Assembly: GCA_017449075.1 (NCBI GenBank) | Contig: JAFSKG010000007.1 | Location: forward strand, 1 to 36,502 | From: Lachnospiraceae bacterium | Lineage (GTDB): Bacteria > Bacillota > Clostridia > Lachnospirales > Lachnospiraceae | Reading direction: 5' to 3' | DNA: 36,502 nucleotides | In this document: positions 18,359 to 31,552 of the stretch, piece by piece | Layout of the letters: every line of letters begins with the position of its first letter | Position numbering within the stretch: the stretch's first letter is position 1 | Program-made: the position numbers and the translations under genes | Notes under the pieces: generated by a model | Seen by the model: only the letters and a program-made list of their open reading frames with translations | Database searches by the model: none | Told to the model about the DNA's origin: nothing

Positions 18359-19237
18359 TTACTCCTTCTCTTTAGCACATTTAAAACATGGCCTTAGATT
18401 ATAATTCTCAATACTTTCCTTAGGGATTTTTGTCACATATGCTGTCATGAGCGGACAATCATCTCTATAATGAAATTTATCGCCATACTGTGTTATATAG
18501 CATATTGTGTCATTTTTGAGCTTGATTTTTTTGAAACAATAATCGCACTTACTATATTTTTGATTATTATAATTTCTATGACTACCCACATTCTTGTATT
18601 CCACTGCTGTCGTTTTTTTTACTAAGTATGTACAATTAATGTCTATGTGATAAACCATTGAGTTTACATAATTGTTTGCAACATATATAAAATCTCCACT
18701 CTCATAATCATTGTCAAACCTATCTCCATCAGAACCAACAAATGCTCTTCTACTATTTACCAATCTATTTATGACTCCATCAATGTTTAAAACATTGTAT
18801 GGAAGATTAAAACTTACTAGATAATCATATGTCACAATATTGCTTGTCGTATCATATATGTCATAATTTATAGGATAGACAAAACTGATATTTCTATACT
18901 CTCTTTCATTCTCATCATATCTATCAGAAAAACTTGATGTAAATATAAGTTGATTTGTTGCATCTTCTATCTTGTCTATACTATCTTCTGATACGTTGTT
19001 ATCTTCCATATAATTTGAAATCTTTCTAAATATACTTGAATCTTTTGTCCTGTGCTTAATCATTTCATAGTCACATCTAATCTTAGACATATTATTAAGC
19101 TCTATTAGAAAGTCACTTGTAGTTTTTATTATCAAAAGTGGCCCTAGCATCATAAATAGTATAAACACAGTAAGTGTAAAAGAAAATGCAGCCTCGACAG
19201 TAATTGATGCTTTAAGTTTTTTATTTGTTATTGTCAT
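18359..19237 (-). CDS. TadE-like pseudopilin with two Cys/His modules
   Basis: The N-terminus (MTITNKKLKASITVEAAFSF) is a class III prepilin leader: a short basic leader, probable cleavage after KA, Glu at +5, then a hydrophobic helix. This is typical of TadE/TadF minor pseudopilins. A region of about 150 residues follows. The C-terminal third holds two similar modules with a His, a Cys and a CxxC pair: VYHIDINCTYL...CDYC and DKFHYRDDCPLM...CFKC. These could bind Zn. The start is uncertain: the ATG at 19235-19237 gives a short leader, but an ATG at 19268-19270 is in frame and would lengthen the overlap with the upstream gene. It sits between the DUF5702-like gene and a prepilin peptidase. Confidence 0.75.
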   Translation of the reverse strand: MTITNKKLKASITVEAAFSFTLTVFILFMMLGPLLIIKTTSDFLIELNNMSKIRCDYEMIKHRTKDSSIFRKISNYMEDNNVSEDSIDKIEDATNQLIFTSSFSDRYDENEREYRNISFVYPINYDIYDTTSNIVTYDYLVSFNLPYNVLNIDGVINRLVNSRRAFVGSDGDRFDNDYESGDFIYVANNYVNSMVYHIDINCTYLVKKTTAVEYKNVGSHRNYNNQKYSKCDYCFKKIKLKNDTICYITQYGDKFHYRDDCPLMTAYVTKIPKESIENYNLRPCFKCAKEKE

Positions 19238-21317
19238 AATAGCATCTGTAACCTTTTGTCTTGATTGCATACTCTCTATAAAGTCTCACATCTTTTGCAG
19301 ATACAAAAACGAAATTAGTAAAGAAATGTTTACAGACAAATGTATTTTCTACATCAAAGGAATATACCATCTTTTCAAAATCAAAACTATCTTGCTCATC
19401 TTTTATATTTCTTTCTATAATACTTGCCATCCTTGCATCTATGTCTGGCTGCCATGTTTTAAGAAGTAATACTCTTAGATAGTCTTTGTAGTTTAATGCA
19501 AATCCCGTATCATCATTTTCATCAACATCAGTCATCTGGCCTGCCGCAATCTTAAGAATAGATTCAACTGATACAGTCCACGAACTATCATCATGCATAA
19601 AGTTTACCCTTTTATTCTTCATAATCTTCCTTAAATCAGCTATTGACTGAGCTGTCCCCCATGCAGTTATTATTACAAGGAACATTACTTCAACCATAAG
19701 TGGAGAAAAACCACTAAATAGTGCTATAGCAAATTGTCTTGCGGCAGCTCTCTTATCTGCGCTCTTATATATGTGAAGTACATTCATGGCAATTCTTATG
19801 AGCATAATTTGGTTAACTACACTTTTAATAGAACTTAGATCATTTCTATCACCTGTTATTAGCCTTTCCACTTCAAACTTCTTGCTGCCACTTGGTGTAA
19901 GCTCACCATTAAGTTCCTTGTTAAAATAATTAAACTTATCTAGTTCATACTCGCCAAGAAGTATTTTTTCTAAAGTCAATGTATTATTATTGGATAAAAT
20001 GTTAAAACTTGAATAATTGATATTCTCACTACTTATACCATTTATCGTGTCGCTATCAAGTATTAGGTTAATCAAAACTCCATTTTTAAAACCAATTAAT
20101 TTGTTTAAAAGATTTTCATCTTGACTATGATTGGTAGTAGAAACTGCTATTTGTATTTGGTCCATCTTCACATCTTTGTAGCTGTCCTTAATATCTTTTA
20201 GATAGTCAGAAACTTCACTTATCAAATCCTTAATGTCTTCTTGTATTGATTTGATTTCATCAGAATCATAGTCATCACCCTTTTGTCTTCTTGCCTCTTT
20301 TAATTCCTCTTCAAGAGTTTCATGTTCTGAAACGAATCTCTCAATTTCTCTATAATGTTCCTCTACAATTTCAGTCAACTCCTTACAATTGTTAAAGCCT
20401 TCTTCTACAGCCTTATTCATATCGCTATCTTCATCTACAAATGAAATAAAATGCTCAAATTCAGATTCTATAAATTCAATTATCTCATCATTAAATTCAT
20501 AATTACCACTTGTTCTATCATCTTGGTATTGTTGATATTTTTCGTTTACAACTTGCCTAAACTCTATCATTTTTTCTCTAAACCCCAAAAGATTATTATA
20601 AAGATTTTTAATCCTATCATTTAACTCATCAAATTTTTTCAATACGGCTTCGGCATTGGACTTGCTTCCAGCAGTTGACATTACTTTGATTCTATTCAAA
20701 CTAAGATTTACTTTATCAACATAATCTGATATTTTTTTTGCATAGTTTTCAAGCGACTTTATATCATCTGCATAATTGAAGTACCTCTCATAAACCTCTT
20801 CATACAGGCTACTCTTCTCCACTTCTTCAAATAAGTCACTAGCCTTATCTCTTAACTCTTCTAAATTTTCTTCTCCTACTATGGTAATCTCTTTTCCCAA
20901 AAATTTAATCGCCTTACCTATTAGTTTATATTTTGCATAGTTAATAATTTCTTTTTCAAGATAGGTTTCATCCGTCAATATTTTAATATTAAGATTTATA
21001 TTGTCTTGATTTATGTCTGCAATATACCAATTTTTAATGAAGCGATCTTCACTCATAAAAAATGGATACATGTAGCCGAGATATTCAGTTTCAAGCATTT
21101 CTTTTGTACGATATTCAACCCCATACAAACTATAATAGTTATATAATTTTCTATGATAGAGTGATGCCATTGAGTCAAGTGCTGCATCTGTAGCAATCTG
21201 AAGATACAGTTTTTGGCAATTAATTCGTGCAATTTCTGTAACCGATAACACAACGGACACTATCAGTACTATAGCAAATACAAAATATATAGATATGCTC
21301 CCTCTAAATCTTTTCAT
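19221..21317 (-). CDS. Tad pilus-associated protein, DUF5702-like (698 aa)
   Basis: The N-terminus (RGSISIYFVFAIVLIVSVVL, then SVTEIARINCQKLYLQIATD) is the TadG-like start seen in Clostridia Tad loci that I associate with DUF5702: a membrane helix with an E-x-A-R motif and a helical stretch beginning 'ATDAALDSMASLYHRKLYNYYSLYG'-like. Residues about 150-390 are strongly charged and likely coiled coil (for example EEHYREIERFVSEHETLEEE). A second hydrophobic segment lies near 535-560. It is presumably anchored in the membrane, reaches outward and takes part in pilus assembly or tethering. It begins within the stop codon of flp (TAATG), so translation is coupled; there is no independent ribosome site. 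Confidence 0.75.
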   Translation of the reverse strand: MKRFRGSISIYFVFAIVLIVSVVLSVTEIARINCQKLYLQIATDAALDSMASLYHRKLYNYYSLYGVEYRTKEMLETEYLGYMYPFFMSEDRFIKNWYIADINQDNINLNIKILTDETYLEKEIINYAKYKLIGKAIKFLGKEITIVGEENLEELRDKASDLFEEVEKSSLYEEVYERYFNYADDIKSLENYAKKISDYVDKVNLSLNRIKVMSTAGSKSNAEAVLKKFDELNDRIKNLYNNLLGFREKMIEFRQVVNEKYQQYQDDRTSGNYEFNDEIIEFIESEFEHFISFVDEDSDMNKAVEEGFNNCKELTEIVEEHYREIERFVSEHETLEEELKEARRQKGDDYDSDEIKSIQEDIKDLISEVSDYLKDIKDSYKDVKMDQIQIAVSTTNHSQDENLLNKLIGFKNGVLINLILDSDTINGISSENINYSSFNILSNNNTLTLEKILLGEYELDKFNYFNKELNGELTPSGSKKFEVERLITGDRNDLSSIKSVVNQIMLIRIAMNVLHIYKSADKRAAARQFAIALFSGFSPLMVEVMFLVIITAWGTAQSIADLRKIMKNKRVNFMHDDSSWTVSVESILKIAAGQMTDVDENDDTGFALNYKDYLRVLLLKTWQPDIDARMASIIERNIKDEQDSFDFEKMVYSFDVENTFVCKHFFTNFVFVSAKDVRLYREYAIKTKGYRCYYDNNK

Positions 21318-21514
21318 TACTGATAAATACTTTCTGCCTGACTATTTATTTTGGAAAATACTGTGCTAAGAAGTGTCCCTATCTTATCTTTAAATAAGAA
21401 TACAAACCCAATCAAAACCACGATGATAAGTACAAGTTCGATAACTCCAGCACCAGACTCGTCATCAATAAATTCTTTAAGACCATTCCTAACTTTAAAT
21501 AATAAATAATTCAT
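21317..21514 (-). CDS. flp: Flp-type major pilin
   Basis: A 65-residue prepilin. The leader ends in DDESG, followed by AGVIELVLIIVVLIGFVFLF: a Gly at the cleavage site, Glu at position +5 and one long hydrophobic helix, as in Flp1 pilins. The mature protein would be about 44 residues. The ATG is preceded by GGAGGG. It lies between the TadC and DUF5702-like genes, so it should be the main subunit of the fibre matured by one or both prepilin peptidases of this operon. The C-terminal tail is short (NSQAESIYQ), without the Tyr-Phe pair of some Flp pilins. Confidence 0.85.
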   Translation of the reverse strand: MNYLLFKVRNGLKEFIDDESGAGVIELVLIIVVLIGFVFLFKDKIGTLLSTVFSKINSQAESIYQ

Positions 21515-21523
21515 ATGCCCTCC

Positions 21524-22954
21524 TTACATACCCATAAAAGCGGGTACCATTATTACTACCATTATTATTGAAAGCATCATCATAAGTGGCAACACTAACT
21601 TAGTGCTCGCTTCTTCACCAAGCTTTTTTGCATTTTGTTTTCTCTCATACAATGCATCTTGCACCTCCATATTTAAAATATTTTTTAAATCTTTGTTGCC
21701 ATTTTTTATACTTTGAATAATAATGTTCAGAAATCTTGTGTAAACTCTCATGTTGATATTTTTTGCCATCTCTTCATAGGCATTTATCTCACTATATCCA
21801 CTTGTGAGTTTATTTTTTACTACAATCAATTCTTCGTAAGCGGCATGTGGCTCATAATTCTTGTCATCTTTTTTATTTTTCTGATACTGCTCCGCAAGTC
21901 TTACAAAAGAATTTCTTATCGTCATGCCACTACTCACATACAAAAGAATCTTTGAAATGATTTGTGCAAAGTCAATCTCAAGTAATCTAACTCTTCTCTT
22001 TTGCTTTTCCTTTTCTTGCTCTTTATCTCTTGCGTCAAGTAATATTGCGACGAGTAAGCCAAATATTGGCATAAGTAAAAATCCAAGATTCTTCTTTTCT
22101 TTATATATAACTTTGAAATCATTAATTACTTCCGGTAATTTTATAGTGTCCTCATCTATAGTCTCTTTGTCGCTACTTACCACTTCCTTTTTAAATGCAA
22201 CTTTAAATGATTCAATGGGAGACAATTCTCTACTCACAACTCTCACAGGCAACATATATTTTTCTGATTTGTAGCTGCCCTCTTTTCCCTTGATCTCTGT
22301 AGATAGTTGCACAACTATATAACCTGTGCAAAACTCAGTTATCTTAAAATTCTCATTGCTGACATTTCCACTCCCATCTATTACATTTTGATATTCTACA
22401 TAGTATTTAAAATCTGATATATCGCTCTTAGTCGCTATGCTTGGCGTTGACTCACTGATTGAAATTTCACTTTTTGTAGATTTTTTACTCCTCTTTTTAT
22501 ACTTATCGTAGTATTCATCAATCTTCTTAGGTTCAAATACATAGCTAGCCTTGATGCCATCCCCTAAGTCAGTTTTAAAATTGAGTTTTGAATTTACTTT
22601 TTCTAAACTTTCGTTTTCATTTAGAATGCCAACTTTTAATGTTTCAATCTTTTTAGAAAAAACTTCATCCGCCTCTTCCTTTGTATACTTTTTTGAAGAT
22701 ACAGAAACACTAAACTCCATATTTTTAGCAAGGTTCTCTACATCCACATTTATAAAATATGGAGTCTTTTGTGTTCCGTAAGAACTTCTCTCAATCTCAT
22801 TCGGTCTCACATAGATAGATTTATCGTTTGTTATAAGTGATAAAATCGCAAATATGATACCTGCCACTATACAGTATATAGACCTTTTCTTTATTCTTTT
22901 TACTCTTTCTTTTAGCTGTTCAATTTTTCTTGATATAATTTTTTTGATACTCAT
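21524..22954 (-). CDS. tadC: TadC-like inner membrane platform protein with large extra domain
   Basis: A 476-residue protein. The C-terminal 170 residues (about 305-476) are a type II secretion F-type domain: TMTIRNSFVRLAEQYQK, then GYSEINAYEEMAKNINMRVY, and a last membrane pair ending MMMLSIIMVVIMVPAFMGM. Ahead of it a membrane helix at about 26-44 and another at about 293-311 enclose some 240 residues rich in beta-forming sequence and Ser/Lys, which would face outward. Usual TadC proteins are near 300 residues, so this ectodomain is an addition. No good Shine-Dalgarno precedes the ATG. It follows tadB by 31 bases. Role: membrane platform that works with the CpaF ATPase to extrude the pilus. 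Confidence 0.8.
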   Translation of the reverse strand: MSIKKIISRKIEQLKERVKRIKKRSIYCIVAGIIFAILSLITNDKSIYVRPNEIERSSYGTQKTPYFINVDVENLAKNMEFSVSVSSKKYTKEEADEVFSKKIETLKVGILNENESLEKVNSKLNFKTDLGDGIKASYVFEPKKIDEYYDKYKKRSKKSTKSEISISESTPSIATKSDISDFKYYVEYQNVIDGSGNVSNENFKITEFCTGYIVVQLSTEIKGKEGSYKSEKYMLPVRVVSRELSPIESFKVAFKKEVVSSDKETIDEDTIKLPEVINDFKVIYKEKKNLGFLLMPIFGLLVAILLDARDKEQEKEKQKRRVRLLEIDFAQIISKILLYVSSGMTIRNSFVRLAEQYQKNKKDDKNYEPHAAYEELIVVKNKLTSGYSEINAYEEMAKNINMRVYTRFLNIIIQSIKNGNKDLKNILNMEVQDALYERKQNAKKLGEEASTKLVLPLMMMLSIIMVVIMVPAFMGM

Positions 22955-22985
22955 GGTTATAAATATGGATAGGGGAAAATGGTTT

Positions 22986-23843
22986 TTAAACTTCGATTTC
23001 TAATATCTTTTTAGAAATCTTTACAGAAAAGAAATAAACAACTAAGGCAAAAGTCATAAGTAGCCTTCCTTCAAGTGTCGTGTAAAGTGGTCTCAAAAAT
23101 GATGATGATGAGATGTTCATATATATTATGATAAGAAAAGGTAGCAAGTTCATCAGTTTCTGTTCAAATCTTTTTGAAGCAGTAACTGTATCTATTTCTA
23201 TCTTTACTTCTATCTTGTCGTTAATTACATTGATGGTGTTTCCAATAATTTTGCTTATATTTCCACCATGAAGTTTTGATATTATGAAGACTTCAGAAAA
23301 ATCTATTATGTCTTCCATATGAGTCTTGTCAGCAAACTTCTTAAACACGACATCTATTGGTTTATTAATTTTTAGTAGCGACACCATGCTCTTCAATTCT
23401 TTAACCATCATAGATTCCTTGCCGTGTAACATCATCACATCTCTTACCGACATAGCAAATGCATTTTCTACAGAATATGATGCTTCCAAAAATGTCTTAA
23501 GAACTCTTAAAAAATCTTTAAACTCATTCAAAAGTTTTTCTTTTCTCTTTTTTATAAATTGATCTTTTTCAAAAAAGGGAATTACAAACGATAGTGGCAA
23601 AGTGACAACTAGCAAGACTTTACTGTCATAAAATGCCACACATATCAAGACTATATAAAGTGCTACACTAGCTGCACTAGTAAACAAATCTTCCATCGAC
23701 AAATAATACTTATCATAATCGCTAATCAAGTTTTCTTTGATTTTTAAGTGCTCCACATTTGACGAGACTTCTTCCATCAAATTCGTAAAGTTTATTCGTC
23801 TGATATTTTTCGTTATCAAGTGAAAGTAATTCTGAAATTTCAT
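22986..23843 (-). CDS. tadB: TadB-like inner membrane platform protein
   Basis: A 285-residue type II secretion F-type membrane protein. Hydrophobic pairs lie at about residues 60-95 and 225-280, with the cytoplasmic F domain between them: FLRVLKTFLEASYSVENAFA, and the second part DFSEVFIISKLHGGNISKII. It should partner TadC under the CpaF motor. The ATG at 23841-23843 has a well-placed AAGGG six bases upstream, although this makes the gene overlap the end of cpaF by 122 bases. Later in-frame Met codons have no ribosome site, so I keep the long form. Confidence 0.82.
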   Translation of the reverse strand: MKFQNYFHLITKNIRRINFTNLMEEVSSNVEHLKIKENLISDYDKYYLSMEDLFTSAASVALYIVLICVAFYDSKVLLVVTLPLSFVIPFFEKDQFIKKRKEKLLNEFKDFLRVLKTFLEASYSVENAFAMSVRDVMMLHGKESMMVKELKSMVSLLKINKPIDVVFKKFADKTHMEDIIDFSEVFIISKLHGGNISKIIGNTINVINDKIEVKIEIDTVTASKRFEQKLMNLLPFLIIIYMNISSSSFLRPLYTTLEGRLLMTFALVVYFFSVKISKKILEIEV

Positions 23844-24897
23844 ACACTACCCTTCGTTTATTTTTCAATTTTGCTAGATGAATTAATATATCTATACTGC
23901 TCGCAATCTGCTGTCTTATGGCAAGGAGTGGAAGATTTTCTGCCATCAATACCATCGTCTCAAGTCTTGACAACATATCAAAGCAGCTGTTTGCATGACC
24001 GGTTGATAGTGATCCGTCGTGTCCGGTGTTCATAGCCTGTAGCATATCGAGAGCCTCTTTGCCTCTTACTTCTCCCACAACTATCCTATCTGGATTCATA
24101 CGAAGAGCAGCCTTTATAAGCATCTGCATAGTTATCTCGCCCTCTCCTTCCACATTTTTATCTCTCGTCTCAAGCGACACAAGATTTTCTACATGAGAAA
24201 TGTTTAACTCTGCACTATCTTCTATAGTTATAACTCTATCATCCTTTGGTATGAACTCGGAAAGCGCATTTAAAAATGTTGTTTTACCCGAGCCAGTTCC
24301 CCCAGAGATAAAAATGTTATACCCACTTTTTACCAGGCTCTTTAAAAAATCTGCAGCTTCCAAATTTATAGAACCATATTCTATAAGTTTCTTCATAGTA
24401 ATTCTTTCAGGAAACTTTCTTATCGTAACTGTTGCACCTTTTATTGCAATAGGTGGAAGCACTATATGAACTCTTGATCCATCAAAAAGCCTTGCATCTA
24501 CAATTGGATTTGAGACATTTACTATTCTATTAATTTTTCCAACTATTTGTTGGATGATATTTTCTAATTGCTCTTTTGACTCAAAACTCTTATCCCATCT
24601 TTGATATTTACCATTCCTATCTATAAATATCTCGTCATAGGAATTGATCATAATCTCGTTGACATTTTTATCATCCAAAAGTTCAGTCAGTATGTCATAA
24701 TTCTTAAGGCTATCGTAGATGCTTTTCCTGAGCATAAGTTTCTCTTTTAGTTTAAGCGGTACATCTCTTCTCTCTAAGTCTTCAATCTTGTTGTCAATTA
24801 CATTTAAGATTTCCTTATCATCAAGGCTTACACTGTCAGATAACTCATCAATAAGTTGCCTCTTTATATCATTTTTATAATCTTCATTAATCATCAT
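23722..24897 (-). CDS. cpaF: CpaF/TadA-type secretion ATPase
   Basis: A 391-residue hexameric type II/IV secretion ATPase that powers Tad pilus assembly. An N-terminal helical domain (1-90) is followed by the core: Walker A ISGGTGSGKTTF (about 199-206), Asp box DDRVITIEDSAEL, Walker B RMNPDRIVVGEVRG, His box TGHDGSLSTGHANSC. The PxVDxRLFDGSRVHIVLPPI block upstream is typical of CpaF. All catalytic motifs are intact. The length is a little short for the family (usually 400-480). The start overlaps the TadZ-like gene's end by 11 bases; the 3' end overlaps tadB by 122 bases. Confidence 0.95.
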   Translation of the reverse strand: MMINEDYKNDIKRQLIDELSDSVSLDDKEILNVIDNKIEDLERRDVPLKLKEKLMLRKSIYDSLKNYDILTELLDDKNVNEIMINSYDEIFIDRNGKYQRWDKSFESKEQLENIIQQIVGKINRIVNVSNPIVDARLFDGSRVHIVLPPIAIKGATVTIRKFPERITMKKLIEYGSINLEAADFLKSLVKSGYNIFISGGTGSGKTTFLNALSEFIPKDDRVITIEDSAELNISHVENLVSLETRDKNVEGEGEITMQMLIKAALRMNPDRIVVGEVRGKEALDMLQAMNTGHDGSLSTGHANSCFDMLSRLETMVLMAENLPLLAIRQQIASSIDILIHLAKLKNKRRVVYEISELLSLDNEKYQTNKLYEFDGRSLVKCGALKNQRKLD

Positions 24898-25816
24898 TTT
24901 TTTCTAAAAAACACTGCTTGCAAAAAGCTGCAAGATATGCCTTATCAAGTTTTGCAAGGTCAAATACTGTAATCTTTTTCAAATCCAATTGATTTTCATT
25001 CTTTAAATATGCTTTTAACTTATCTATTTTAGAGGCGTCCTTATCTCTCATCACAACGACAGCATCTGCATCATTTAATATGTATTGGCATTTCACATAC
25101 GAAGTATCAGCATTTATAAATATAAAATCATAACCTAATTTTGTTATCTCGTTTACAATGTTCGCGATATCTATATTGGTCACAACATTGAAATCTTCCG
25201 GATATGTTACCGACTTGATTATCTCCTGATCTTTTTCGGTCACTATTTCACGCCTCAGTTTTTCTTCATTCAGTGTATTTTCCTTATAGTCATATATAAT
25301 ATTTGAAAGTCCCACACTTCCTTTGTAATTCTCAAATTCATCCAAATCAATTATCAATACTCTCTTCTTTTTTGATATGACTTTTGAAATTCTTTTTACT
25401 ATCTCTAATTTATTTTTTATATATGTTGGAGAATAATATAAAAATAGTTTACATGCTTCATTGGCTTTACATTTACTCTTTGCATTCTTTTTATCTATGT
25501 CTTTGTCTATCACTTCTAAAACATTTTTTACATTTTGAAGTTTATAAATATAATTTCTCTTGCCCTCTTGCCTTGTTTTTTTGTCCTTCTCATTAAGTAA
25601 ATATATGGATTTTGTCCTTATGTCATCAAGATTATCCGCAAGTGATTCTGATGCGACAAGTCCTTCAACCTGATTCTCATCCGCATACTTCTTCATTTGC
25701 TTCAAACTTGAAAATGTCAAAAAATTATATTTTTTCCCAAGTAACTTATTTGCCTGATTACAAAATTTCTTACTATATACTGGATCTTCATCCATGACCA
25801 TTAGTATTTCTTTCAT
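24887..25816 (-). CDS. TadZ/CpaE-like protein with lost Walker A
   Basis: A 309-residue protein in the TadZ/CpaE position. The N-terminal 110 residues look like a divergent response-receiver (EILMVMDEDPVYSKKFC...). The rest has the outline of a MinD/ParA ATPase: KLFLYYSPTYIKNKLEIVKR where family members have a Walker A, VLIIDLDEFENYKG, GYDFIFINADTS in the Walker B region, and ADAVVVMRD. The expected GKGGxGKT is gone, replaced by SPTYIKNK, so ATP binding is probably lost. TadZ-type proteins position the pilus machine at the membrane; a scaffold role would not need ATP. The ATG at 25814-25816 has GGGAG upstream and overlaps the preceding stop by four bases (ATGA). Confidence 0.72.
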   Translation of the reverse strand: MKEILMVMDEDPVYSKKFCNQANKLLGKKYNFLTFSSLKQMKKYADENQVEGLVASESLADNLDDIRTKSIYLLNEKDKKTRQEGKRNYIYKLQNVKNVLEVIDKDIDKKNAKSKCKANEACKLFLYYSPTYIKNKLEIVKRISKVISKKKRVLIIDLDEFENYKGSVGLSNIIYDYKENTLNEEKLRREIVTEKDQEIIKSVTYPEDFNVVTNIDIANIVNEITKLGYDFIFINADTSYVKCQYILNDADAVVVMRDKDASKIDKLKAYLKNENQLDLKKITVFDLAKLDKAYLAAFCKQCFLEKNDD

Positions 25817-26220
25817 ATCATCTCTCCCAATCTTAGTAATAAAAATGTGATATATCCAAAGAATGTTGTGAATGCTATTGGCACCATTTTGATTCCACTT
25901 GCCAAAGGAATTAAGCTTATCAACATTGTTATAAAACAAATGTACAGTGAATCTATTGGGTCTATGATTAGCATCATGGTGGCATACAGTTTAAAGTCCC
26001 CAGCTGAACTTCTTACTATGCGCCGTAACGGATAAAAGATGCCAACCACCAATAAAGACATTGTTATTGAAAACGGACTGATGTGTGTGGCACTAAAGCT
26101 AAGATTTACTATATGTGTACCAATCCACCCCAATAATATTGCATTTGGTATCAAACCTGTCTTTAAGTCAAAAAATCCGAGAATAGCAAGTGTGATCAAG
26201 TTGCAGCGGAAACCTATCAT
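25813..26220 (-). CDS. Prepilin peptidase, A24 family (first of two)
   Basis: A 135-residue integral membrane protease at the head of the Tad operon. The first catalytic Asp is in LGFFDLKTGLIPN and the second in RSSAGDFKLYA (the GxGD motif written SAGD). About five hydrophobic segments are seen and there is no methyltransferase domain. The start is ATG 26218-26220 or the adjacent ATG 26221-26223; AGGAGG stands just ahead, and the second codon has the better spacing. An in-frame extension to 26367 has no ribosome site and lacks sense as protein. The stop overlaps the start of the TadZ-like gene. It should mature Flp and the pseudopilins together with, or in place of, the peptidase at 17920. 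Confidence 0.85.
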   Translation of the reverse strand: MIGFRCNLITLAILGFFDLKTGLIPNAILLGWIGTHIVNLSFSATHISPFSITMSLLVVGIFYPLRRIVRSSAGDFKLYATMMLIIDPIDSLYICFITMLISLIPLASGIKMVPIAFTTFFGYITFLLLRLGEMI

Positions 26221-27956: not shown

Positions 27957-28078
27957 CTCGCGATAATATGGGGTAATTTCAATATTTTTATAACATTTTT
28001 TTATCAACTATGATATAATACATATGCGTTAATCATTTACAAATTATCAATAATAAACAACAAATATTAGGAGGGAAT

Positions 28079-30889
28079 ATGGCAAGAAAATGGGTTTACA
28101 AATTTAAAGAAGGAAATGCGTCTATGAGAAATCTCTTAGGCGGCAAGGGTGCAAACCTCGCTGAGATGTCAAGACTTGGACTTCCAGTGCCACAAGGTTT
28201 CACTATCACTACTGAGGCTTGTACTCAATATTATGAGGACAAGAAAACTATCAACAAAGAAATCATGGGTCAAATAATGCAAAACGTTAAAGACCTTGAG
28301 AAACTTTCAGGAAAGAAATTCGGAGACAAAACTAATCCACTTTTAGTCTCTGTTAGATCTGGTGCAAGAGCATCTATGCCAGGCATGATGGATACTATTT
28401 TAAATCTTGGATTAAACGAGACTGTTACAGAAACTCTCGCAAAGAAATCTGGAAATCCAAGATGGGCATGGGACTGCTACAGAAGATTCATTCAAATGTT
28501 CTCTGATGTAGTTATGGAAGTTGGAAAGAAACATTTTGAAGAATTGATTGACAAAATGAAAAATAAAAAAGGTGTTAAGCAAGATGTTGACTTAACTGCT
28601 GATGATTTAAAAGAATTAGTAAAACTTTTCAAAGGCGAATATAAAAAAGCAATCGGAAAAGATTTTCCAGATGACCCAACAGTTCAATTAAACGAAGCAA
28701 TCAAAGCCGTATTCCGTTCATGGGATAACCCAAGAGCAAATGTCTATCGTAGAGACAACGACATTCCTTATAGCTGGGGAACTGCTGTAAACGTACAAAT
28801 GATGGCATTTGGTAATATGGGAAATACATCAGGAACAGGTGTTGCATTTACAAGAAACCCAGCAACTGGTGAAAAGAAACTTATGGGTGAGTTCTTACTA
28901 AATGCTCAAGGTGAAGACGTCGTAGCAGGAATTAGAACTCCACAACCTATCGCTGAGCTTGAGAAAATAATGCCTGAAGTTTATAAACAATTTACAAAAA
29001 TTTGCAACATTCTTGAAAAAAATTATAGAGACATGCAAGACATGGAGTTCACTATTGAGGATAAACATCTCTACATGCTCCAAACTCGTAATGGTAAGAG
29101 AACTGCAAGAGCTGCACTTAAGATTGCTTGCGACTTAGTATCAGAGGGAATGAGAACTGAGAAAGAAGCTGTAGCAATGATAGACCCAAGAAATCTTGAC
29201 ACTCTTCTTCACCCAACATTTGATGCTGCTGCAGTTAAGAAAAATCCTCCTATAGGAAAGGCACTTGCTGCAAGCCCTGGTGCTGCTGCTGGTCAGATAG
29301 TATTTACAGCTGAAGATGCAAAAAAATGGGCAGGTCAAGGAAAGAAAGTTGTACTTGTTCGTCTTGAGACAAGTCCTGAAGACATAGAAGGTATGAAGGC
29401 CGCTCAAGGTATCCTCACTGTTCGCGGTGGTATGACATCTCACGCTGCAGTTGTTGCCCGTGGTATGGGTAAATGCTGTGTATCTGGATGTTCTGATATA
29501 GTTATGAATGAGGCAAAGAAAGAATTCAAACTTGGCGGAAAAACTTTCCACGAAGGTGACTTACTTTCTATAGATGGTTCAAACGGATGCATTTATGATG
29601 GAAAACTTCCTACTCAAGATGCTTCTATCGCAGGTGAATTCGGAAAGATAATGAAGTGGGCCGACAAGTATCGTAGACTCATTGTAAGAACAAATGCTGA
29701 CACTCCAAGAGATGCTAAGAAGGCAAGAGAACTTGGTGCTGAAGGTATCGGTCTTTGCAGAACTGAGCATATGTTCTTTGAAGGAAATAGAATTGATGCA
29801 TTTAGAGAAATGATTTGTGCAGATACTGTTGAAGGTAGAGAAAAAGCTCTCGCTAAGATAGAGCCTATGCAACAAGGAGACTTTGAAGAACTCTATGAAG
29901 CACTTGAAGGTTATCCAGTTAATATAAGATTCCTTGACCCACCTCTTCACGAGTTCGTACCAAAAGAGAAAGCTGACATAGAAAAACTCGCAAAGAGCAC
30001 TGGAAAGACAGTTGATCAAATTAATGCAATCATTGATGGTCTTAAAGAGTTTAACCCTATGATGGGTCATAGAGGCTGCCGTCTTGCTGTTACTTATCCT
30101 GAAATCGCTGCTATGCAAACTCGTGCAGTTATAAAGGCAGCTATAAATGTAGCTAAGAAACATCCAAATTGGAAACTCGTTCCTGAAATAATGATTCCAC
30201 TTGTTGGAGAGATCAAAGAGCTTAAATATGTTAAGAATATAGTTGTAGAAACTGCTGATGAGTTAATCAAGAAAGCTAAGTCAAATCTTAAATATAAAGT
30301 TGGAACTATGATAGAGATTCCACGTGCTGCTCTTACAGCTGACGAGATTGCTAAAGAAGCTGCATTCTTCAGTTTCGGAACAAATGACTTAACTCAAATG
30401 ACATTTGGATTCTCTCGTGATGATGCTGGCAAGTTCCTTGATGCATATTACGATAAGAAGATTTTCGAAAATGATCCATTTGCAAAACTTGACCAAGTTG
30501 GTGTTGGATCTCTTATGAAGATGGCTGCAGAAAAAGGTAAGTCAGTTAATAAAGATTTACACCTTGGTATCTGCGGAGAGCACGGCGGTGACCCATCATC
30601 TGTAGAGTTCTGCCACAAGATTGGTCTTGACTATGTATCTTGCTCACCATTCAGAGTTCCTATAGCAAGACTTGCTGCTGCTCAAGCAGCTATCGCAGAG
30701 GAAGGTACTTTAAAAGGACAAGTTAAGAAGGCTGTTGCTAAGGCTGAGAAAAAAGCTAAGAAGGTAGTTAAGAAGGCTGCTAAGAAAGCTAAGACAAGTG
30801 CTAAAAAAGTAGTTAAGAATGCTAAGGCAAGCGCTGCTAAAGCAAAGAAAGCAATCAAAAAGGCTGTTAAGAAGGCTAAGAAGAAATAA
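28079..30889 (+). CDS. ppdK: Pyruvate, phosphate dikinase with histone H1-like C-terminal tail
   Basis: This is a 936-residue enzyme interconverting pyruvate, ATP and phosphate with PEP, AMP and pyrophosphate; in anaerobes it often works in the glycolytic direction. Domains are an ATP-grasp domain (1-340, with SVRSGARASMPGMMDTILNLG), the swivelling phosphohistidine domain (GGMTSHAAVVARGMGKCCVSG, His 455), and the PEP/pyruvate-binding TIM barrel ending GICGEHGGDPSSVEF (Cys 832) and SPFRVPIARLAAAQ. Normal family length is about 875-880. The last 56 residues are extra: about 26 Lys and 16 Ala with only one acidic residue (for example KKAKKVVKKAAKKAK). AGGAGG precedes the ATG. GC-rich codon choice and a strong terminator suggest high expression. 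The stop is genuine; no frameshift is needed to explain the tail. Confidence 0.96.
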   Translation: MARKWVYKFKEGNASMRNLLGGKGANLAEMSRLGLPVPQGFTITTEACTQYYEDKKTINKEIMGQIMQNVKDLEKLSGKKFGDKTNPLLVSVRSGARASMPGMMDTILNLGLNETVTETLAKKSGNPRWAWDCYRRFIQMFSDVVMEVGKKHFEELIDKMKNKKGVKQDVDLTADDLKELVKLFKGEYKKAIGKDFPDDPTVQLNEAIKAVFRSWDNPRANVYRRDNDIPYSWGTAVNVQMMAFGNMGNTSGTGVAFTRNPATGEKKLMGEFLLNAQGEDVVAGIRTPQPIAELEKIMPEVYKQFTKICNILEKNYRDMQDMEFTIEDKHLYMLQTRNGKRTARAALKIACDLVSEGMRTEKEAVAMIDPRNLDTLLHPTFDAAAVKKNPPIGKALAASPGAAAGQIVFTAEDAKKWAGQGKKVVLVRLETSPEDIEGMKAAQGILTVRGGMTSHAAVVARGMGKCCVSGCSDIVMNEAKKEFKLGGKTFHEGDLLSIDGSNGCIYDGKLPTQDASIAGEFGKIMKWADKYRRLIVRTNADTPRDAKKARELGAEGIGLCRTEHMFFEGNRIDAFREMICADTVEGREKALAKIEPMQQGDFEELYEALEGYPVNIRFLDPPLHEFVPKEKADIEKLAKSTGKTVDQINAIIDGLKEFNPMMGHRGCRLAVTYPEIAAMQTRAVIKAAINVAKKHPNWKLVPEIMIPLVGEIKELKYVKNIVVETADELIKKAKSNLKYKVGTMIEIPRAALTADEIAKEAAFFSFGTNDLTQMTFGFSRDDAGKFLDAYYDKKIFENDPFAKLDQVGVGSLMKMAAEKGKSVNKDLHLGICGEHGGDPSSVEFCHKIGLDYVSCSPFRVPIARLAAAQAAIAEEGTLKGQVKKAVAKAEKKAKKVVKKAAKKAKTSAKKVVKNAKASAAKAKKAIKKAVKKAKKK

Positions 30890-30925: not shown

Positions 30926-30954
30926 AAAAAGGAGTGATTTCTCACTCCTTTTTT
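30926..30954 (+). terminator. Intrinsic terminator of ppdK
   Basis: AAAAAGGAGTGA (30926-30937), loop TTTC, TCACTCCTTTTTT: a perfect 12-bp stem followed by a T-rich run. Confidence 0.9.
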
Positions 30955-30985: not shown

Positions 30986-31552
30986 TTAAATACCTAACTC
31001 CTTTATTTTTTTGTTTAACTCTTCTTTACTGATATTTAATTTGTTTAGTACAACCTCTTCACTAATCAATCCTTCTCGTAGCAAATTCACATATGCTTTT
31101 ATTTCTCCTTCTTCTCTTAGCCCTTCTATGGCTCTCTCTACTTCCACCGGCATAATTTTTTCCTCCTTCATCCTGGTAATTGTTTTGAAATTATTGTTGA
31201 CATAGTCTGTTGTTGATAATACTTTCATTACTTCTGCTATACTTGACTTGTCATCTACTTCGGCATTGATGTAAATCTCATGGTAGCCATTATTGAGATA
31301 TGACTGTGTTTCAGCTATTTGTCTTTCTACATGATAGATCGTCCTACCTAATCCTATAAAATCTCTTAAGGTTAGATAAATCATATAAAGGTCTGGCAGT
31401 TCTGAAAAATTTTGGTTCGGTGATAAGTTCTTGACATCAATCATCGATCCATAATACCTAACTCTTCTTTGTTGGTCATGCTTTTCTCCGTAAGTATTAT
31501 TTTCCACCTCATTTATCGCATTAAAACAAGCCAAATAACTTATTTTTCTCAT
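30986..31552 (-). pseudogene. Rpn-family (PD-(D/E)XK) nuclease/transposase, 3' fragment
   Basis: The frame encodes the C-terminal part of an Rpn/YhgA-type recombination-promoting nuclease: RRVRYYGSMIDVKNL, SELPDLYMIYLTLRDF, then NGYHEIYINAE and a helical tail (EEGEIKAYVNLLREGLISEE). The catalytic N-terminal part (first 80-100 residues) is absent. The visible ATG (31550-31552) lies inside the 3' end of the heavy-metal-binding gene and has no ribosome site; the homologous part begins only around VENNTYGEKHD (near 31515). I read this as a truncated remnant, not a working gene. Many Clostridia carry such fragments in multiple copies. Confidence 0.65.

Follow-up and report, generated by a model that had tools for sequence, protein, structure and literature searches.

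A lysine/alanine-rich, histone H1-like tail on pyruvate phosphate dikinase in a genus of Lachnospiraceae

The ppdK gene and its tail

We analysed a window of 36,502 nucleotides (nt) from a Lachnospiraceae bacterium (contig JAFSKG010000007.1), in which positions 28079-30889 of the plus strand encode a pyruvate phosphate dikinase (PPDK) of 936 residues plus a stop codon. As a first-pass annotation had proposed, a complete PPDK is followed by an extra, H1-like Lys/Ala tail. The NCBIfam model TIGR01828 spans residues 4-872 (model positions 2-865 of 865; 1405.6 bits, cut-off 843.45), a full-length match above the curated cut-off that places the protein in this family, and the Pfam domains of the open reading frame (ORF) come in the order PPDK_N, PEP-utilizers, PEP-utilizers_C. 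Of the solved PPDK chains, the top match is 9pzl_A over residues 3-872 (1353.6 bits), and 1kbl, from Clostridium symbiosum, aligns to residues 4-872 (1353.1 bits); both chains (873-874 residues) stop where the window tail begins. The window PPDK is an ordinary enzyme with predicted catalysis.

The extension begins at residue 873 and comprises 64 residues, including 27 Lys, 17 Ala and 3 acidic residues, with a net charge of +24. The annotation had the enzyme complete by about residue 880 with 56 residues added, of which the complete core holds, while the border lies somewhat earlier and the extension is longer. Its count of 26 Lys and 16 Ala within the final 56 residues agrees with ours; the core composition would predict 5.6 Lys in such a segment (binomial p 3e-12), and core windows of the same length hold 13 Lys at most. 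Among the 64 tail codons are 17 AAG, 13 GCT and 10 AAA, and Tandem Repeats Finder reports two imperfect repeats, one of 45 bp (2.3 copies, 79% match) and one of 12 bp (3 copies). The features of the gene, all on the plus strand, are:

27990..28019, plus: promoter-like site, ATAACA and TATAAT with a spacing of 18 and TG before the second hexamer (consensus scan)
28069..28074, plus: Shine-Dalgarno AGGAGG before the ATG (read from the sequence)
28079..30694, plus: PPDK core, residues 1-872 (TIGR01828, Pfam, alignment to solved PPDK)
30695..30886, plus: Lys/Ala-rich C-terminal tail, residues 873-936 (composition; orthologous tails L084-L090)
30887..30889, plus: stop codon TAA (translation)
30926..30953, plus: terminator-like hairpin of 12 pairs and a T run, starting 36 nt past the stop (hairpin scan)

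The promoter-like site is weak evidence alone, as the consensus scan gave 17 sites in the region and 18.6 were expected in shuffles; terminator-like sites numbered 7 versus 2.8 expected. The window genome (G000, a 1.64 Mb draft, 76% complete) belongs to a genus labelled g1 and represented by 12 genomes. All eight PPDK copies of the genus have a GGAGG-type site ahead of their start codon ATG, and in a permissive search without shuffle control a hairpin with a T run starts 11-90 nt past the stop in 8/8 of these genes. Elsewhere in the window, positions 23722-24897 (minus strand) encode a TadA/VirB11-type secretion ATPase, perhaps within a Tad-type pilus cluster; a scan of the minus-strand neighbours at 19221-25939 gave no NCBIfam match at 1e-10. 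Downstream of ppdK lies an ORF of 188 residues (30986-31552, minus strand) without a Pfam match above the curated cut-off.

Distribution and history of the tail

PPDK matches were found in 46 of 60 related genomes (the window's own included), and in 8 of the 12 genomes of the genus; as these are drafts, the counts given here for PPDK, and below for PrdC and hydrogenase, are lower bounds. No PPDK was found in the g1 genomes G002, G003, G006 and G008. The nearest named PPDKs, from Lachnospiraceae or other Clostridia, share 81-82% identity, in a search that may leave out entries from the window genome itself or from one very close to it. All eight PPDKs of the genus carry a Lys-rich tail of 48-75 residues with a net charge of +13 to +31, which answers the annotation's question about relatives. 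Nor did we find the sequencing error or read-through for which it had allowed: the same architecture recurs in eight genomes with diverged DNA, which excludes read-through, frameshift or assembly error as the origin of the tail, and the hairpin after the stop in all eight genes also opposes read-through. We give such an artefact practically no credence.

We examined C-termini at 110 PPDK loci, two of which were cut by contig ends. None of the 100 readable C-termini outside g1 carries a Lys-rich tail: 94 end at most 8 residues from the AAQA motif, and six (L059, L061, L078, L080, L094, L105) continue into long, charge-balanced Ala/Glu/Lys tails. Eight further PPDK regions were chosen from genus-neighbour and family searches, the latter with a match in 350 of 397 genomes and picks made from the matches listed, strongest first. 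Five of these regions have an Ala/Glu/Lys tail, two are tail-less, and one (G248, L203) has no C-terminus in the stretch; the L202 tail is identical to that of L061, and both probably represent one and the same genome. At class level, a search in which the last 107 residues served as query matched 241 of 291 genomes; among the matches listed, strongest first, only G000, G242, G605, G646 and G296 gave uninterrupted long matches, and the tails of the latter four are of the Ala/Glu/Lys type. Among the loci read and the matches listed, we saw no Lys/Ala PPDK tail outside g1. In all, Ala/Glu/Lys tails were seen on PPDKs L059, L061, L078, L080, L094, L105, L201, L202, L204, L205, L207, L300, L301 and L303. 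These tails, on PPDKs of scattered Lachnospiraceae and Oscillospiraceae, share a final motif of approximately AGxxGxKAGxxEAKKxYxExxK, and three of them gave only Pfam matches below the curated cut-offs.

In a quickly built tree that includes 74 PPDK cores out of 134 available (14 tailed, 60 tail-less; SH-aLRT branch support only), the eight g1 PPDKs form a single clade (SH-aLRT 100) surrounded by tail-less rows. The Ala/Glu/Lys-tailed PPDKs are scattered over the tree, with the six full-length ones at several separate positions, and the tail states require 7 changes in all. A derivation of the Lys/Ala tail from Ala/Glu/Lys tails is unsupported by this arrangement, with the g1 clade amid tail-less rows and the other type scattered. 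We also considered gene conversion from stand-alone Lys/Ala genes of the genus. In local DNA alignments, however, seven of the eight tails score highest against the PPDK tail of a sister genome and not against a stand-alone gene, which favours vertical descent; only the G011 tail differs, with a score of 50 against a stand-alone gene of G009 and 46 against its sister PPDK tail.

Within the genus, core identity is 91-96%, and tail identity is 48-84% with gaps. The ratio of non-synonymous to synonymous substitution (dN/dS) was 0.09-0.17 for the tail in four of five pairs tried, dS being saturated in the fifth, and 0.04-0.06 for the core, with core dS of 0.40-0.71 among the pairs tried. A neutral simulation of three tails, with assumed base composition and transition weight, started from Lys fractions of 0.42-0.45 and ended near 0.25 after 0.3 substitutions per site and near 0.16 after 0.6, compared with 0.31-0.475 observed in the eight tails. 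The retention of Lys, the low dN/dS and the drifting identity indicate that charge and composition are conserved while order drifts, which fits a polyelectrolyte segment. We conclude from these sequence comparisons that the tail is real, selected and as old as the genus. The recent growth by repeat expansion that the annotation had proposed is thus unsupported, since a tail is present on every PPDK found in the genus and the tail DNA is in seven of eight cases most similar to a sister PPDK tail, and in an old tail the imperfect 45-bp and 12-bp repeats do not show recent growth. Nor do the eight tails share the preference for AAG among the AAG-GCT codons that it took as a mark of this expansion: AAG makes up 0.16-0.63 of their Lys codons.

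Alternatively, AAG/AAA-GCN repeats might have grown at a tolerant terminus with little function. The imperfect tandem repeats would fit such low-constraint expansion, as would the variable length (48-75 residues), the identity down to 48%, the long tails of another type on PPDKs of scattered lineages, and a Lys fraction that in one tail lies within the neutral bound at the lowest simulated divergence. The tail dN/dS and the retention of most Lys relative to the neutral expectation speak against it; moreover, such tails are rare in the genome samples described below, yet they are found again on the same orthologues, at N- as well as C-termini. On balance, we regard this explanation as unlikely.

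Other lysine-rich proteins of the genus

Scanning with a strict Lys/Ala codon pattern yielded 63 hits in the 12 g1 genomes versus 1 with the reversed-pattern control, and 41 versus 32 in 28 other genomes; these figures are sums over genomes, and many of the g1 hits overlap inside one gene. A criterion for terminal Lys/Ala segments, which 14 of 14 known targets pass, gave no hit in a G000 sample of 282,187 nt (206 ORFs of at least 100 residues), one hit, of 149 residues, in a G004 sample of 315,886 nt (264 such ORFs), and two borderline hits in a control of 758,320 nt (530 such ORFs) around the PPDK genes of other genomes. The near absence of hits indicates that the extensions are few and placed and do not represent a property of the whole proteome, and excludes the possibility that every protein of the genus has Lys tails.

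The genus also encodes stand-alone Lys-rich small proteins. In G000 we found ones of 56 residues (C47), 96 residues (C38) and 49 residues (C25), as well as a conserved H1-like type of 113-140 residues, with the pattern MDxGYN...KAFEMIF...ISAEGKEK followed by Lys/Ala and a divergent N-terminus in G003. The gene for the conserved type has a match in 11 of the 12 g1 genomes, including all eight with a tailed PPDK, and in none of the 28 other genomes; the G002 copy contains two internal stops. TTGACA and TATAAT were seen by eye upstream of all nine copies read, which include:

G000:C9:38359-38697, minus: conserved H1-like protein, with a near-consensus promoter
L245, L246, L248, L249, L250, L252, L253, L338: further H1-like copies

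The Lys-Met junction of this protein is encoded by AAGGTAAAGAAAATG-like DNA, which resembles an internal ribosome site with a start codon and also the start of the 56-residue stand-alone gene at C47:119253; two products are therefore possible from the H1-like gene. The small Lys/Ala proteins gave only Pfam matches below the curated cut-offs. The globular domain of linker histone H1 is a winged-helix domain, and no H1 globular domain appeared in Pfam scans of PPDK or of the small Lys/Ala proteins; the likeness to the C-terminal tail of eukaryotic linker histone H1 is one of Lys/Ala composition only.

Furthermore, pattern hits in the window genome led to Lys-rich extensions on other proteins. 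PrdC (G000:C11:49004-50683, minus strand; TIGR04481, 563.9 bits), by profile matches the RnfC-like electron carrier of proline reductase, has about 50 additional, Lys-rich residues at its N-terminus and is encoded near prdA, a prdB match, selA and selB. From the prd genes, the host is probably a proline-reducing Stickland-type anaerobe. All six g1 PrdCs found (this locus and the L209-L214 set) carry a Lys-rich N-terminal extension that varies in length and Ala content, with 35 residues and few Ala in G006; it is absent in the sole out-of-genus PrdC found (G016). In G006, a 788-residue ORF (L214:1489-3852) contains PrdC followed by part of PrdA (model positions 157-337), which may be a fusion, a rearrangement or an assembly effect.

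A group A6 [FeFe]-hydrogenase also carries a Lys/Thr/Ala extension, at the N-terminus of its catalytic subunit (G000:C32:47625-49496, plus strand; NF040763, 881.6 bits), whose gene follows NuoE- and NuoF-like ones. The extension is found on 5/5 g1 A6 orthologues of at least 90% identity (L361-L365), although in G011 it is just some 18 residues long. Full-length hydrogenases of g1 that are more distant align from residues 35-45, and one from 24; the extension is absent in the two out-of-genus N-termini printed (L366, L373). An S1-domain protein (G000:C6:87410-89998, minus strand) ends in a Lys/Thr/Ala repeat tail that is nearly identical in G004 (L332); we read this protein as probably Tex-like, its NCBIfam matches being to the S1 domain only. 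Two small, apparently helical proteins have short Lys-rich ends, one of 127 residues (G000:C47:43681-44061, minus strand; no Pfam match above the cut-off) and one of 149 residues (L384:1411-1857).

Possible roles of the tail

Helical periodicity was assessed as the hydrophobic moment at 100 degrees relative to composition shuffles of the same segment. All PPDK tails but one exceeded their shuffles (seven tails, z 3.2-6.9; the remaining one, z 1.6), as did all three PrdC extensions tried (z 4.6-6.3), so that both should be able to form a helix with a Lys face opposite an Ala/Val face. Stand-alone H1-like proteins gave mixed values (z 4.4, 3.2, 2.0 and 0.7), and the charge-balanced Ala/Glu/Lys tails of other PPDKs were also high (z 3.9-5.2).

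The closest precedents for the PPDK tail are the H1-like C-termini of PhaF and AlgP (PMC9239181 and PMC13052382). PhaF and AlgP of pseudomonads and PhaM of Cupriavidus are likewise proteins with another job that carry a Lys/Ala-rich end, and the three are described as nucleoid tethers in a review (PMC13052382). Nucleoid tethering by non-specific DNA binding is reported for them, whereas for the PPDK tail it is a prediction; moreover, they are granule proteins, in contrast to the soluble catabolic enzymes described here. The AlgP tail consists of KPAA repeats with Pro, whereas the window tail has no Pro but 100-degree periodicity; among the eight genus tails only L087 and L089 contain Pro, three each. 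The PPDK tail shares the Lys/Ala-rich polycationic terminus of the PhaF/AlgP type and lacks its KPAA-type Pro repeats; it resembles such a tether without Pro-rich repeats, with putative DNA binding. In a broader survey (PMC6821194), prokaryotic DNA-binding proteins are enriched in Lys-rich low-complexity segments, and metabolic proteins of eukaryotic proteomes are depleted of low-complexity regions. Its examples of Lys-rich low-complexity segments with nucleic acid binding, topoisomerases, Ku, histone-like proteins and ribosomal L21, already act on nucleic acid, whereas PPDK is metabolic. In the open PMC literature, in which PrdC was not searched by name, we found no title or abstract that deals with Lys-rich tails on PPDK or [FeFe]-hydrogenase of bacteria.

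We consider a polyanion-binding role for the tail plausible and propose that it is a polycationic anchor, most likely for the nucleoid, with a rough probability of 0.5. The Lys/Ala(Val) tail would form an amphipathic helix that is probably disordered until it contacts the polyanion, as PhaF has been modelled (PMC3574117). It would most likely hold PPDK on the nucleoid, by way of DNA, nascent RNA or both; the stand-alone H1-like proteins of the genus would coat this same surface. By similar Lys-rich extensions, PPDK, PrdC, the A6 hydrogenase and the Tex-like protein might be concentrated on one surface, three of which (PPDK, PrdC and hydrogenase) belong to pyruvate and redox energy metabolism. 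The sequences show the extension, its conservation and constraint within the genus, its rarity in genome samples and its recurrence on other proteins; that it binds, to which polyanion and with what consequence for flux is what we infer. In a wider form of this proposal, which we judge quite unlikely, the extensions on PPDK, PrdC and the A6 hydrogenase would be a common electrostatic address, by which the pyruvate and redox branches assemble, together with abundant H1-like proteins specific to the genus, on the nucleoid or another polyanion, as a catabolic assembly without shell or dedicated scaffold.

Two other surfaces were considered. As a membrane anchor, the cationic amphipathic helices would bring PPDK and PrdC to anionic phospholipid in the vicinity of ion pumps such as Rnf or a membrane pyrophosphatase, in line with the significant helical moment of both tails and with PrdC being RnfC-like and encoded beside prdA/prdB. 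However, the non-polar face is mostly Ala/Val, with a total of 0-5 Ile, Leu, Met, Phe, Trp and Tyr per PPDK tail, the hydrogenase extension has no helical moment, and the tail composition resembles that of the stand-alone H1-like proteins of the genus, which makes this anchor rather improbable. Alternatively, the tail could bind polyphosphate and put the pyrophosphate-linked PPDK at a granule. H1-like AlgP is stated to associate with polyphosphate granules (PMC9239181), and a paper on thermocellum (PMC10339645) is cited on the same side. This scaffold would leave PrdC, hydrogenase and Tex unexplained, and we hold it to be distinctly improbable.

Several observations weigh against the nucleoid anchor. 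The amphipathicity of the PPDK tail also fits membrane binding. The hydrogenase (z 0.1-0.2) and Tex (z -2.3) extensions are without periodicity, so the set may not share a single mechanism, and the PrdC extensions of G006 and G007 have more Ser/Thr than Ala. PPDK-less genomes make up 4 of the 12 in g1, two of them at least 92% complete, which indicates that members of the genus can do without the arrangement. The dN/dS values are rough on aligned low-complexity sequence, because misregistered Lys codons inflate dS, and one tail, L090, has a Lys fraction (0.312) that stays within the 97.5% bound of the neutral simulation at 0.3 substitutions per site (0.32-0.33), although it exceeds that for 0.6 (0.23-0.24). 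With looser patterns, most of the g1 genomes tried gave no excess over their controls (hits/control: G004 25/32, G007 19/27, G010 47/37, G011 15/20, G000 40/19; another looser pattern in G000, 58/44), and our list of other Lys-rich proteins, traced from pattern hits in one genome, is incomplete.

Bacterial H1-like tails have so far been known from DNA proteins and granule tethers. Here they occur, apparently under selection, at N- or C-termini of soluble catabolic enzymes, in a genus that also has its own H1-like proteins. If the nucleoid anchor is correct, bacteria would be able to place metabolism on the chromosome by a simple charge tag.

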